DNA from: Pseudomonadota bacterium
GTDB lineage: Bacteria > Bdellovibrionota > UBA1018 > CAIMNF01
Assembly (NCBI GenBank): GCA_027486675.1
Contig: JAIXOQ010000020.1
Span: forward strand, 1 to 64,000
Length of the DNA stretch: 64,000 nt
Direction of reading: 5' to 3'
Shown here: positions 27,055-34,556 of the stretch, piece after piece
Position numbering within the stretch: the first letter of the stretch is position 1
Layout of the letters: every line of letters starts with the position of its first letter
Translations under genes and position numbers: made by a program
Notes under the pieces: model-generated
What the model was told of the DNA's origin: nothing
The model's input: the letters and a program-made list of their open reading frames with translations, nothing else
The model's database searches: none

Positions 27055-27804
27055 ATGCGAAAGATTTATCTCCTGCCAAACTTGTTCACGACTGCAAATA
27101 TTGTGTTTGGCTTCACCTCCATCACCCTTTCCGCTCAAGGGGAAATTGTAAAAGCCTCTTGGTTTATTATCGCAGCAGCCGTCTGCGATCTACTCGACGG
27201 CCGCATTGCACGTCTAACGCGAACCACTTCGGCTTTTGGAGTGCAGTACGATTCGCTTTCTGATCTCACCTCCTTTGGAATTGCCCCCGCATTTCTTTTG
27301 CACAATTTAACGGTAGAACTTTTTCAAGGGACGATCTTCCTCATCGCGAGTTCTGCAATTTTTGTAGTCTGTGCGGCTCTTCGTTTAGCCAGATTTAATG
27401 TTTCCGTAGATCAGCCCACTCACTTCAAAAAAGGATACTTTCAAGGGCTGCCCTCCCCGGTTGCGGCAGGCCTTGTGGTGAGTGCTGTACTCTTTGAAAA
27501 AAAGTTGGATTTGTTTGGCAGTCAGATGTTTCCGAAGGTCATCACGCTTATTGGCGTTCTCAGTGCTTTATTGATGGTCAGCGGTATTCCGTTTCCGTCT
27601 TTTAAGGAAGTGAAGTGGCGTTCCAAGGGTGGAATTCCTCTTTTGCTCGGGTCGTTTTTCCTGCTGATTCTTGCATTACAGGAGCCCGAACAAATCTTCT
27701 TTCCAGTGGCCGGTTGTTATCTTGTGGGGAGCTTAGTGTGGAGTGGATTACAGGCGATAGGATGCGCCGGAAAGAGGGAAGAGAGCGCAACGCCCTTGTC
27801 ATAA
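27055..27804 (+). CDS. pssA: CDP-diacylglycerol-serine O-phosphatidyltransferase
   Basis: A 249-residue membrane enzyme that makes phosphatidylserine, the precursor of phosphatidylethanolamine. It is of the integral-membrane (Bacillus/archaeal-like) type II class: CDP-alcohol phosphotransferase signature DLLDGRIARLTRTTSAFGVQ followed by YDSLSDLTSF with all Asp residues, and about seven membrane segments. It uses the CDP-diacylglycerol made by CdsA of the same operon. The 3' end overlaps the next gene by about 43 bases. Confidence 0.94.
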   Translation: MRKIYLLPNLFTTANIVFGFTSITLSAQGEIVKASWFIIAAAVCDLLDGRIARLTRTTSAFGVQYDSLSDLTSFGIAPAFLLHNLTVELFQGTIFLIASSAIFVVCAALRLARFNVSVDQPTHFKKGYFQGLPSPVAAGLVVSAVLFEKKLDLFGSQMFPKVITLIGVLSALLMVSGIPFPSFKEVKWRSKGGIPLLLGSFFLLILALQEPEQIFFPVAGCYLVGSLVWSGLQAIGCAGKREESATPLS

Positions 27805-29984
27805 GGGGCTTTGTTTCGCTGCTTTTCGTGCTTCACGGAGGAAGCGCAGAGGGTGAAGTGCTCGTGAAGGGCGTGGAACCTTATCCTCAATATACGCATG
27901 CAGACACAAGCTATGTTCTATCTTATGCCGGTGCAGCAGGAGCTGGTGGTGGCACTGCTGGAACTACACAGGTCGATACCCTTCAAGGTTTTCGTGTCAT
28001 TGATACGAATGATCTCGAGTCCTACATTACCTTTGATGTTTCATCCGATTCGACCTTTACCTTGCAAGCAGATGAACAGGTCTATGCTGCAATAGCGACC
28101 TCAAACAGTACAAGTGAAGCCATCGCCATTACAGCCGCTGAAGTAGCAAGCGGAACATCTGAGCCATCTGCCCCATCCTGTCGAGGGCTTTATTCGTGCT
28201 ACACACCCAACACAAGCCTTCGACTCAAAATTAAGCTACAAGACATCTGCAGCAGAGTCGGTGCAGGCACAACATTCTGTGGAACATCGACAAGTATCTT
28301 GGATCCAGCGTCCCAGACTCCGAAGATTGTATCGCGAGACTTTTATGTAATCTTTTTTAAGACCACGAACATCGATAGTTCGTCTTTTACGACCGTCGAT
28401 TCAGGAGTGTTTAAAATTCAGTTTTCTGCTGAGCCGCCATCTATTACGTGTGACAACTCTTCACCGGAAAAATATTATTTTCCAGGCGATACAGAAATTA
28501 TTTTTAGTACCAAGTCTGTCGCTGCAAGTGATTCTAGCGGGGTTGCGCTCCAAAAGTACCTACTTCTACTCCGCAATGGGTCGGCCCCAAGCTCCCTACC
28601 GACGGGCTTTTCAGACAGCATTTTGAATCGTTTTGACGCGACTCTCACTGAGGTTAGGGTCACGGGTCTGACCAATACGACAGATGGTGTTGATAACGCA
28701 TACCAAGGAGCGCTCTACATCGTGAATCAAGCAGGACTCATCGGAGAAGAGCCAACCACCTGTGCATTGCCAGGCCCGATACAGTCCCAAACAATCACAG
28801 GCGTTCTGGACTCAGGGCGATGTTTTATCGCCACGGCGGCATTTCAAGGTCTATCGCTAAAGCCGGTACAGATTCTGCGACGTTTTCGTGACACGGTCCT
28901 GCTTCGGCTTCCGATGGGTTCCGATTTTGTAGAGAGTTACTACCGCTGGTCTAGGACGCGCTCGATCCAAGTTTGGAAATCACCGTTTCTTAGGCACGCA
29001 GCTTTGCATTTCTTATGGCCACTGACGGCGTTTGCGTCCGTGATCAACGCCTTTGCAGAGGAGCTTGGGCAGTCCCCCTACATCGATCGAATGAAGGCGA
29101 AAATGAAGGAGGACCCAACTTCAGGAGCCAGTGATTCGTCAAAAGACTATTCGAAGATTGAAAAAGAAAAATTAGATCGGGAAAAAAAGATTATTTCTTC
29201 GGATGGCTATACGGAACGCCTTCGCTCTAAACTTGAGCCGGAGAAAAAAGAAGACGTACCCGGAACCTACATCGATCAGCAAAAAAAAAATCTTCCACCA
29301 GAGGACGCTGATGCCCGGCCGAGTGTGATCGATACTGTGAAGGCCAATACCTACCGTGCACCCGATCCATTTGAACGCGCAAAAATTACACAGGGTGCAT
29401 CCTTTAAAGTGGGGCTTGCAACTGGAGCAACGGTTTCGGTCAATGGATCAGCCGCAGAGTTTGAGCGTGTTTATGGGACGGGCTGGCAGCCTGAGGTCAT
29501 TTTCCATTATGAGAAACAGCCCTTTCACCACGAGCGTCTGGGTAGTCTTGGGCTGACCTTTGATTTTGGTTTCGCTCAGGCCGGAGGGTACGGAACCCTT
29601 GCTTTTCCCTATGCAGGAAGCACGGTTTCGCGGACTTCCTTTAATTTCATTCAAGTGCCGATCTTGGGTGGGGTCAATTATCGTTTGAATGCGCTGCATA
29701 TTTTGCGTCCTTACATTTCTGTTGCGGCGGGTGTGATGGGCTATACAGAAATTCGTACCGACTCGAGGCCAGACTACCGGGGATATTCCTTGATCGCGAC
29801 TGGGTCGGTCGGCGCAAGCATCTTGCTCGATTTTTTGGATCGAAAGACGATGGTGGATGCCTACAACTCATTTGGCTTTCAACACATATTTCTTTTTGTA
29901 GAGTTCCTCGCAATGAGAACTCTGTCTGGGCCTGTTACATTTGAAAGAGGCGGCATCTACAGTGGTTTCCTCTTTGAGTTCTAG
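27762..29984 (+). CDS. CFI-box protein fused to a C-terminal outer-membrane barrel
   Basis: A 740-residue exported protein. It has a signal peptide (VIRGFVSLLFVLHGGSAEG), a Ser/Thr-rich Cys-containing domain (about residues 30-350), and at residues 354-400 the CFI-box signature CFIATAAFQGLSLKPVQILR, followed by FRDTVLLRLPMGSDFVESYY and a hydrophobic segment. Such boxes are usually C-terminal. Here they are followed by a charged Lys/Glu-rich linker (residues 445-540) and a barrel-like domain (about 545-740) ending in FLFEF. It overlaps pssA at the start and truA at the end, inside a core operon. Confidence 0.72.
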   Translation: MRRKEGRERNALVIRGFVSLLFVLHGGSAEGEVLVKGVEPYPQYTHADTSYVLSYAGAAGAGGGTAGTTQVDTLQGFRVIDTNDLESYITFDVSSDSTFTLQADEQVYAAIATSNSTSEAIAITAAEVASGTSEPSAPSCRGLYSCYTPNTSLRLKIKLQDICSRVGAGTTFCGTSTSILDPASQTPKIVSRDFYVIFFKTTNIDSSSFTTVDSGVFKIQFSAEPPSITCDNSSPEKYYFPGDTEIIFSTKSVAASDSSGVALQKYLLLLRNGSAPSSLPTGFSDSILNRFDATLTEVRVTGLTNTTDGVDNAYQGALYIVNQAGLIGEEPTTCALPGPIQSQTITGVLDSGRCFIATAAFQGLSLKPVQILRRFRDTVLLRLPMGSDFVESYYRWSRTRSIQVWKSPFLRHAALHFLWPLTAFASVINAFAEELGQSPYIDRMKAKMKEDPTSGASDSSKDYSKIEKEKLDREKKIISSDGYTERLRSKLEPEKKEDVPGTYIDQQKKNLPPEDADARPSVIDTVKANTYRAPDPFERAKITQGASFKVGLATGATVSVNGSAAEFERVYGTGWQPEVIFHYEKQPFHHERLGSLGLTFDFGFAQAGGYGTLAFPYAGSTVSRTSFNFIQVPILGGVNYRLNALHILRPYISVAAGVMGYTEIRTDSRPDYRGYSLIATGSVGASILLDFLDRKTMVDAYNSFGFQHIFLFVEFLAMRTLSGPVTFERGGIYSGFLFEF

Positions 29985-30777
29985 ACGTTTCTTCTTAGGT
30001 GTTACATATATCGGCGCGCGATATTGCGGCTGGCAAAATCAAGGGATCGACAGTGGTCCAAAGCCAAGCATTCAGAGTGTTTTTGAGCAAGTGTTGCGCG
30101 ACATTACAGGCGAACTCAATCACGTCATTGCCAGTGGGCGGACCGATGCGGGCGTGAATGCACTCGAGCAAGTGGTCCATTTTGATTCGGAAGCTACGCA
30201 CCTGCACACAGACATGCTGATACCCGCAATGAATTCAAAGCTGCCCCCAGATGTGAGGATTCTTTGGGCAAAAGAAGTACCACAAGAGCTCCATGCGCAG
30301 CGGTCAGCGATTAAAAAGCAGTACAGCTATTATTTTCTGACCGGCCCCTGCGCACTGCCGGAATGGCGCTATAGGACGACTTGGGTTCGCCACTCACTCG
30401 ACTGGAAACGCATGCACGAAGCGGCTCAGCAGTTGATTGGGGAACATGATTTTCTGGCGTTTCAGGGAAGGAAAGCGACTCCCTCTAAATCCACAGTGCG
30501 CACGATTTTTGAGGCCGATGTGACAACACTCGGAATGCCGACGATCTTAGGCGATGCATCTGGCCGGAGTCACCACGAGCTGATCCGTGTGCGAGTCGTC
30601 GGGAGTGGTTTTTTGAAACAGATGGTTCGGGGGATTGCAGGGACTTTACGTGAAGTCGGTGAAAATCGTCGCACCCCGAATTCCATTGAAGAGCTCATTT
30701 TGAGCAAAAATCGATCAGAAGTAGGGGTAACTGCTATCGCGAGCGGTCTGTGGCTTGAGAGGGTGTGGTACCCGTGA
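29962..30777 (+). CDS. truA: tRNA pseudouridine(38-40) synthase
   Basis: A 271-residue enzyme that forms pseudouridine in the tRNA anticodon arm. The catalytic region is ASGRTDAGVNALEQVVHFDS, where Asp is intact; the family normally has His where this protein has Asn (GVNA). Other motifs are FLGVTYIGARYCGWQNQG near the N-terminus and LKQMVRGIAGTLREVG near the end. I chose a GTG near 29962; other non-ATG starts (TTG 29941) are possible. It overlaps the preceding CFI-box gene. Confidence 0.95.
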   Translation: MVSSLSSRRFFLGVTYIGARYCGWQNQGIDSGPKPSIQSVFEQVLRDITGELNHVIASGRTDAGVNALEQVVHFDSEATHLHTDMLIPAMNSKLPPDVRILWAKEVPQELHAQRSAIKKQYSYYFLTGPCALPEWRYRTTWVRHSLDWKRMHEAAQQLIGEHDFLAFQGRKATPSKSTVRTIFEADVTTLGMPTILGDASGRSHHELIRVRVVGSGFLKQMVRGIAGTLREVGENRRTPNSIEELILSKNRSEVGVTAIASGLWLERVWYP

Positions 30778-33187: not shown

Positions 33188-33245
33188 TGACTACGTGAGT
33201 CAAGTATAAGGTGCGTCAATTTTTAGGGAAAGGGGTGTGTCCGCC

Positions 33246-34556
33246 GTGACTGCAGTCGAAGTTTTGCTTCTCGGTTTAACCGGCTACTTTGGCGTCTCCA
33301 CCTTGGCGACATGGATTCTGGCCTTGATGAGTCGGAATGAGGTCGAGCGCTTGAAGACGCACACGCCCCAAAAGCTTCCGCCACAACCAGAAATCACGGT
33401 GCTGGTGCCCGCTTGCAATGAAGAGAGCGTGATTGTTTCCAGCGTGCGGGCGCTTCTGAGACTGGACTATTCCAATCTAAAAATCATGATCATCAACGAT
33501 GGATCAAAAGATGGGACGCTCCATCTTTTGTCTCAGGCTTTCCAGCTCAGGAATGAAACCTTCAGTGCCCGCACACGCATCTCGCCTCTTTTGCCGCGTA
33601 GCATGTTTCGGAGTGCCATGGACCCAAGACTGATCGTTCTTGATAAACAAAATAGTGGCAAAGCAGATTCCATCAACTGTGCATTGCAGTTTGTGGAGAG
33701 TGAATTCTTCGCGATTTCTGATGCCGACACACAATGGAGTCCACAAGGGCTCACTCATTTGGTGGCCGGACTTGATGTGGTCCGAGGGCACGTCATTGCT
33801 GTGGGAGGAGTGGTGGGGCTTGCCAATGCTCAGGAGAATCTTCTGACCAGACTTCAAGTTTCAGAATATCAGAGAGCCTTTTTTGTGGGACGTCTGTGCT
33901 GGAATTCTCAGAATGCGGTCCCCCTGATTTCAGGTGCAGCGGGGCTTTATAGAACTAATCCAGCGGTCCAGGTGGGAGGGATACCTGTTGGATCTTTAAC
34001 GGAGGACTTGGAATTTACGCTCAAACTTCACGCGTTTGGAAAGACGCATATTCCAGATTACCGGATCCTTTTTATTGAAAAAACGGTGTGTTTTACCCAT
34101 GCACCACAAACCTGGAAGGTGCTCATAGAGCAGCGCGCACGATGGCAGCGTGGGTTGCTTTGGTGCATGACATCGAGTCCAAAATTTCTCACGACCTCTA
34201 CACCCTTCATCTGGTTTTTGGAGGTGATGAGCGCCCCCATGGAGTGGCTGGCATTCTTTCTGGTCTTGCTCGCCTTAGCCAGTGCATCCATTCCTTTTTC
34301 ATCCGCTGGGATGATCCTTTTGGTTTCCTTTTTGATTGGGGTTGCGAATTCAGTCCTCGCAATGTGGGTCTCTTATCCATTGAAAGAGCACAATCCACGC
34401 CGGTTGCTTGCGGGTGGAATTTTAGAACTCTTTGGGTACCGGCAAATCTTATCTTGGGTTCGCTTTCGATCCATGTGGACAGCGTTTCGGAGTCGTCCAC
34501 CGAGTTGGCGCGCTCACTTAATTCAGCCGGACGCGAAGGTTCGTAAAAACCGTTGA
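33246..34556 (+). CDS. Family 2 glycosyltransferase, processive-type
   Basis: A 436-residue inner-membrane enzyme. It has one N-terminal membrane segment, then a GT-A domain with VLVPACNEESVIVSSVRALL, IINDGSKDGTL (nucleotide binding), ISDADTQWSP (DxD), GSLTEDLEFTLKLH (catalytic Asp) and IEQRARWQRGLLW (QxxRW), and two to four C-terminal membrane helices. This resembles PgaC/BcsA-like synthases that make beta-linked exopolysaccharide. The polymer is unknown. I chose GTG 33246 over GTG 33237 because GGGAAAGGGG sits about 10 bases before it. Confidence 0.88.
   Translation: MTAVEVLLLGLTGYFGVSTLATWILALMSRNEVERLKTHTPQKLPPQPEITVLVPACNEESVIVSSVRALLRLDYSNLKIMIINDGSKDGTLHLLSQAFQLRNETFSARTRISPLLPRSMFRSAMDPRLIVLDKQNSGKADSINCALQFVESEFFAISDADTQWSPQGLTHLVAGLDVVRGHVIAVGGVVGLANAQENLLTRLQVSEYQRAFFVGRLCWNSQNAVPLISGAAGLYRTNPAVQVGGIPVGSLTEDLEFTLKLHAFGKTHIPDYRILFIEKTVCFTHAPQTWKVLIEQRARWQRGLLWCMTSSPKFLTTSTPFIWFLEVMSAPMEWLAFFLVLLALASASIPFSSAGMILLVSFLIGVANSVLAMWVSYPLKEHNPRRLLAGGILELFGYRQILSWVRFRSMWTAFRSRPPSWRAHLIQPDAKVRKNR

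Follow-up and report, generated by a model that had tools for sequence, protein, structure and literature searches.

The MXAN_2561 and MXAN_2562 families of Myxococcus (NF045522 and NF040596) resemble the 740-aa protein described here in that an exported protein with a C-terminal anchor is paired with an outer-membrane barrel homologous to ours. The locus numbers alone suggest that the two genes are adjacent in Myxococcus. The Myxococcus model, however, calls the anchor MXYO-CTERM and not CFI box. Moreover, the N-terminal part of the 740-aa protein did not reach the MXAN_2561 model at E<=10, and its barrel obtained 44 of the 100 bits set as the cut-off for MXAN_2562. The barrel of the Bd0486 family (NF053801) and its CFI-box neighbour offer a second comparison. 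Here both the barrel and the CFI protein are homologous to parts of our protein and occupy the same place between asd and truA. They differ in being encoded by two genes with a 4-bp overlap and in that the CFI protein has a basic tail behind a true transmembrane helix. In the literature collection that was searched, no publication on the CFI box, Bd0485/Bd0486 or MXAN_2561/2562 was found.

In Myxococcus xanthus traA shares a four-base overlap with traB, TraA is tagged with MYXO-CTERM, and both proteins are required for one process (PMC3325183). As in split relatives of our locus, a surface protein with a Cys-containing C-terminal tag is encoded by a gene that overlaps the gene of an envelope partner. 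TraA is composed of PA14, Cys-rich repeats and MYXO-CTERM, TraB has an OmpA-like domain, and beyond this analogy no homology of either to the 740-aa protein was found. MYXO-CTERM is cut by the CPBP protease MrtX (PMC11980579). A tag of this kind consists of a short motif with an invariant Cys directly before a transmembrane helix, and an Arg-rich end. The Cys of the CFI box is also invariant, but in CFI proteins the true transmembrane helix follows only about 75 residues later and in the 740-aa protein it is absent, so that the CFI box departs from the pattern of these short tripartite tags. The cytochrome b/c1 precursor (fbcH) of Bradyrhizobium is unrelated to our protein in sequence. It contains two envelope proteins in one precursor with an internal signal peptide that is cut by signal peptidase, and relatives have separate genes for the two. 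Among the homologues of our protein, an internal signal with a signal-peptidase-I site between two exported domains is clear in the less reduced fusions, whereas the 740-aa protein has only a weak stretch with AFA|EE.

The 740-aa protein is encoded by an open frame at 27762..29984 on the forward strand of the window, i.e. the whole stretch of 64,000 nucleotides that was analysed, and all features given below belong to the same strand. The first-pass annotation had placed the frame correctly and had described a CFI motif in mid-protein, followed by an outer-membrane barrel, which is confirmed by the domain matches, an AlphaFold2 (AF2) model built from a 27-sequence alignment and Foldseek searches. 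The protein starts with a signal peptide (about residues 1-30, 27762..27851), which has a basic start and a hydrophobic stretch running to GSA|EGE, is similar in relatives and contains a helix (residues 7-24) in the AF2 model. It is followed by a presumably extracytoplasmic beta region of Ig/FN3-like character (27852..28811) with conserved alignment columns, conserved residues C163 and C173 and predicted strands within residues 33-322. Foldseek grouped this part with Ig-like domains (Ig/FN-type matches), and the equivalent region of three homologues outside the phylum (L124, L129 and L144) matched Pfam fn3. The CFI-box domain (residues 354-420, 28821..29021) lies in a helical section of the model (helices within 356-436). 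A condensed hydrophobic stretch at residues 414-432 (ALHFLWPLTAFASVINAFA; 29001..29057) ends in a signal-peptidase-I-like site, A432|E433. The linker (29058..29381) was poorly ordered in the model and carries four Y-type repeats (PYIDRMK, DYSKIEK, GYTERLR and TYIDQQK). In many relatives with separate genes the mature barrel protein begins with a PYID-type repeat. The rest of the genome contained one extra match to the PYID repeat, in a pheS-like ORF, which we took as chance, and a PDB sequence search gave weak apolipoprotein A-I matches to the linker alone, which were taken as amphipathic-helix noise.

The C-terminal part (residues 541-740, 29382..29981) is predicted to be an 8-stranded barrel of the OmpA/OmpX type. 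AF2 placed eight long strands within residues 544-739 with a pLDDT of about 88, and Foldseek matched the predicted barrel to Ail, OmpX, NspA and OmpA with TMt values of 0.55-0.69. The barrel scored 67.9 bits against NF053801 over residues 538-730, under the curated cut-off of 370, and is thus homologous to the Bd0486 family and not a member by the curated rule; against NF040596 it reached 44.4 bits, under the cut-off of 100. The split barrel of locus L226 obtained 497.6 bits with NF053801, over the cut-off.

The Cys of the CFI motif is C354 (DNA position 28821), so that 386 residues follow the Cys and about 320 follow the domain. As the domain passes the curated NF041770 rule (52.9 bits against a cut-off of 40, with the Cys-Phe-Ile signature), the suggestion that it might be a diverged box is not supported. 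C-terminal placement, a transmembrane helix and a basic tail are usual for NF041770, and CFI proteins of many phyla end in such a helix and tail; the 740-aa protein lacks all three. Among 130 CFI sequences the invariant columns of the domain were the Cys, one Gly and one Tyr. The median hydropathy in these proteins was 1.41 for the first helix, which is marginal, and 2.16 for the second, a clear transmembrane value, and it is this second helix that is absent from the 740-aa protein. Domain and tail were predicted with high confidence (mean pLDDT 89) as five helices, and a fold search with the domain against the PDB gave no match.

The gene lies on the same strand as rpsB, tsf, pyrH, frr, uppS, a cdsA-like gene, rseP, tsaB, pssA, truA and tig. 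The genes from rpsB to the cdsA-like gene, pssA and truA took their names from an NCBIfam scan; rseP, tsaB and tig, which are conserved in relatives, are presumed identities from reading their sequences. The frame overlaps by 43 bp the 3' end of pssA (27055..27804; TIGR00473, 125.8 bits, above cut-off), and its own 3' end overlaps the predicted truA ORF (29941..30777; TIGR00071, 166 bits, above cut-off), the true start of which is perhaps later. Both are conserved neighbours. These overlaps had been noticed in the first-pass annotation, which considered an exported protein of this kind unexpected in the rpsB operon. Comparison with other genomes does not bear this out. The protein was matched in 55 of 58 relatives, and the order rseP-tsaB-pssA-(asd)-CFI-barrel-truA-tig was retained in most loci on contigs of sufficient length. 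The same block, including an asd gene that follows pssA and precedes the CFI gene, was found phylum-wide; the window's family departs from most of the phylum in this respect, since none of its 13 members had asd at this place. Other genes intervened between barrel and truA in 25 of the 101 loci that had both on one strand. Because the arrangement pssA-(asd)-CFI protein-barrel-truA is conserved through the phylum and the pair stands beside truA in other phyla too, its position is not anomalous, and an unusual insertion into the operon was rejected. A full-length profile matched 247 of 290 genomes of the phylum, a number that may include some genomes matched by a second CFI protein only, since the profile contains the CFI box. 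Close named matches were mainly metagenome assemblies of Bdellovibrionales, Oligoflexia and Bacteriovoracaceae, and in a full-length alignment search of a named genome collection the matches outside the phylum were mostly to the CFI box only. Elsewhere in the window, at 33237-34556, there is a glycosyltransferase-like protein with a PgaC/IcaA match below cut-off (108 of 422 bits).

Counts of fused and split arrangements were based on loci that were actually read and not on the profile matches. Both parts were present in 116 loci, fused in 45 and split in 71, and in 51 of the split loci the second gene had a start that gives a 4-bp overlap with the first. The window's family was fused in all of its 13 genomes; the 12 others contained a single full-length frame of the same architecture with 32-37% identity. 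The first-pass claim of a fusion depended on homologues sharing it and on a predicted barrel, and both were found. Since most relatives are draft metagenome assemblies, it might be suspected that the open frame is due to chance or that two genes were joined by an assembly or sequencing artefact. This is practically out of the question. The same single frame extends over the full length in 12 family genomes, 45 of the 116 loci are fused, some of them on contigs of more than 900 kb, and the shortening of the junction is consistent within the window's family. A chance ORF or a frameshift artefact is refuted by the relatives that share the fused frame.

Both states occurred inside some genera (g19 and g93). 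On a tree of the neighbouring genes (truA, pssA, asd and tig; 111 rows, quick search, LG+G4) the minimum number of changes between fused and split was 19, of which 12 were forced by well-supported branches, counts from which the direction of change cannot be read. Ten of the 19 changes fell in the window's order and nine elsewhere. The CFI and barrel genes have been joined or separated on many occasions, and their repeated fusion is an argument that the two products cooperate one to one.

Outside the phylum, assemblies assigned to 'Deltaproteobacteria', Myxococcales and Proteobacteria also possessed a CFI protein and a homologous barrel. They were fused in L124, L129 and L144, and also, as judged by profile, in L113 and L114, and split in L130; truA adjoined the locus in L124, L144 and L130. 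The 740-aa protein aligned in order with the protein of L124 (Ig part and CFI box, E 3e-13; barrel, E 3e-5), and the barrel of this genome passed the MXAN_2562 cut-off of 100 with 149.5 bits. In L129 (8503-10524) one chain matched in succession MXAN_2561, a family named as MXYO-CTERM-anchored, then the CFI box and then MXAN_2562. Judged by these matches there is an apparent exchange of C-terminal anchors in this type of homologue, CFI box against MXYO-CTERM, and the loci look like descendants of one ancestral pair, anchored by a CFI box in some lineages and, going by the Myxococcus model, by MXYO-CTERM in Myxococcus. The CFI box occurs widely, and its presence where a homologue is named for a known sorting tag connects it with a testable role.

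It might be asked whether the CFI box of the 740-aa protein serves as a sorting signal inside the chain, with a dedicated myxosortase-like enzyme cutting at the Cys or close to it, in the way that MrtX cuts MYXO-CTERM. The homologue of the MXYO-CTERM protein MXAN_2561 that bears a CFI box instead, the transmembrane helix and basic tail at the end of CFI proteins in many phyla, and the genome's one CPBP-family protein, which is weakly MrtJ-like (35 bits, cut-off 75), would fit this reading, which we nevertheless consider improbable. Two CFI proteins were found in the genome, as in most sampled genomes of the phylum, one of them without an evident signal peptide, and so low a number speaks against use of the box as a bulk sorting tag by these bacteria. 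About 75 residues separate the Cys from the true transmembrane helix, unlike in a short tripartite tag, and CPBP proteins were present in 11 of 14 control genomes also. The distribution of CFI proteins and of a processing enzyme, which the first-pass annotation had proposed to check, makes a weak case for CFI-based sorting by a dedicated enzyme in this genome.

The second CFI protein of the genome (L092:2154-2867, G000:C13) has 237 aa, a TPR-like look and no evident signal peptide. Its gene is situated between genes that we take from their translations to be priA and the gene for signal peptidase I, as in L094 and L095. Another member of the family encodes, at a contig edge, a further CFI-box protein with the box near the C-terminus behind a PTATPM-type repeat (L096:1769-2281, G010:C49). 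A single CPBP-family (Rce1-like) protein was detected in the window's genome (L283:1222-1842, G000:C1), next to a proS-like gene.

The junction between CFI part and barrel differs considerably among the loci. In loci with two genes, the first closes with a CFI domain followed by a weakly hydrophobic helix, a strong transmembrane helix and a basic tail, and the second opens with an ordinary signal peptide. Most fusions keep the transmembrane helix, the basic tail and the signal peptide of the barrel in one chain, so that the signal peptide has become internal. The median net charge was +2 in the fused loops, none of which was negative, and +3 in the split tails. In split barrel genes A|[QED] was found after the signal peptide in 55 of 71 cases, compared with 3 of 71 after the helix of the first gene. 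In non-condensed fusions it followed the last hydrophobic segment in 22 of 30 cases and the preceding transmembrane segment in 1 of 29 (Fisher p 1.5e-8, a value that overstates the evidence, since the sequences are related and the strict rule was picked after viewing them, and is given as descriptive support). A looser signal-peptidase motif used in a first scan did not discriminate, as 66 of 71 control segments were positive.

In the condensed junctions the transmembrane helix and basic loop are lost and at most one weak stretch is left. This state was found in the window, in 11 other family members and, outside the family, in G211 and G280; the junction of G019 looks intermediate. On the neighbour-gene tree it required three changes among fusions, and we know of no counterpart in fbcH. 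The stretch at residues 414-432 has a mean hydropathy of 1.41, low for a transmembrane helix, with AFA|EE at its end. An A followed by E, D or Q occupies the place equivalent to A432|E433 in relatives and the end of the signal peptide in split barrel genes. Nine of the 12 condensed family sequences (window included) end in [A/S]-x-[A/S]|[E/D/Q] and three in A-x-A|A-[E/D], and in the family the motif stands just before the PYID-type repeat.

From the computed pair, synteny, fused and split pattern, domain identities and junction motifs we infer a topology, a cleavage and an interaction of the products. The gene at 27762..29984 would represent, in fused and condensed form, an old unit of two genes, and its precursor would be exported and most likely cut after A432, a reading drawn from sequence comparison to which we assign a probability of roughly 0.6. 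The ancestral unit would have consisted of an exported Ig/FN3-like protein with a CFI-box membrane anchor and an 8-stranded barrel as its working partner. Joining of the frames makes the signal peptide of the barrel internal, behind a basic and presumably cytoplasmic loop. Signal peptidase I may then cut at the embedded signal peptide of non-condensed fusions, which would set the partners free in equal numbers. The window's family would have lost the transmembrane helix and basic loop along with most of the barrel's former signal peptide, so that one weak stretch is left, ending in AFA|EE. As only one hydrophobic stretch lies between two extracytoplasmic parts, the classical orientation of a signal peptide would be impossible here unless the stretch forms a hairpin or is fully translocated. 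The N-terminal signal may direct export of the whole precursor, and a cut after A432 would then most likely divide it into an envelope Ig-CFI protein and an outer-membrane partner. Co-localisation of the genes and their repeated fusion point to a joint function in the envelope; no function beyond that of an envelope pair can be assigned. The first-pass annotation had suggested an autoprocessed two-part protein. A two-part precursor is plausible, while self-processing is disfavoured by the signal-peptidase-I-like site that the junction appears to keep, which would mean a cut by ordinary signal peptidase.

The main and serious alternative to cleavage after A432, although we regard it as the less probable one, is that members of the window's family leave the fusion uncut. 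The CFI segment would then have ceased to be a membrane anchor and be part of a periplasmic stalk, and the product a single outer-membrane polypeptide carrying the Ig/FN3 and CFI regions. The weak hydrophobicity of the condensed junction would suit a stable tether, as would the marginal first helix of CFI proteins when the clear second one is missing. Condensation about three times among fusions is also what would be expected if the anchor became dispensable, and AxA|E may have survived as a remnant. Against this, a motif resembling a cleavage site was kept in the 12 condensed family sequences while the surrounding residues vary.

The loci may be tentatively arranged, though with some doubt, in a natural series in which a pair of surface protein and barrel swaps its anchor tag (MXYO-CTERM or CFI box) and changes repeatedly among three states: two genes that overlap, a precursor in which a signal peptide is embedded, and an outer-membrane protein condensed to a single chain. 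If this is true, the CFI box would be the functional equivalent of MYXO-CTERM. The embedded signal peptides would show a route by which two envelope proteins enter one precursor with export retained.

A second kind of CFI fusion was observed in a TA06 assembly (L163:4413-6863). It comprises a CFI box and an R-rich loop, after which an internal signal peptide leads into a part with weak similarity to TraB (NF033763, 31.6 bits, cut-off 700).
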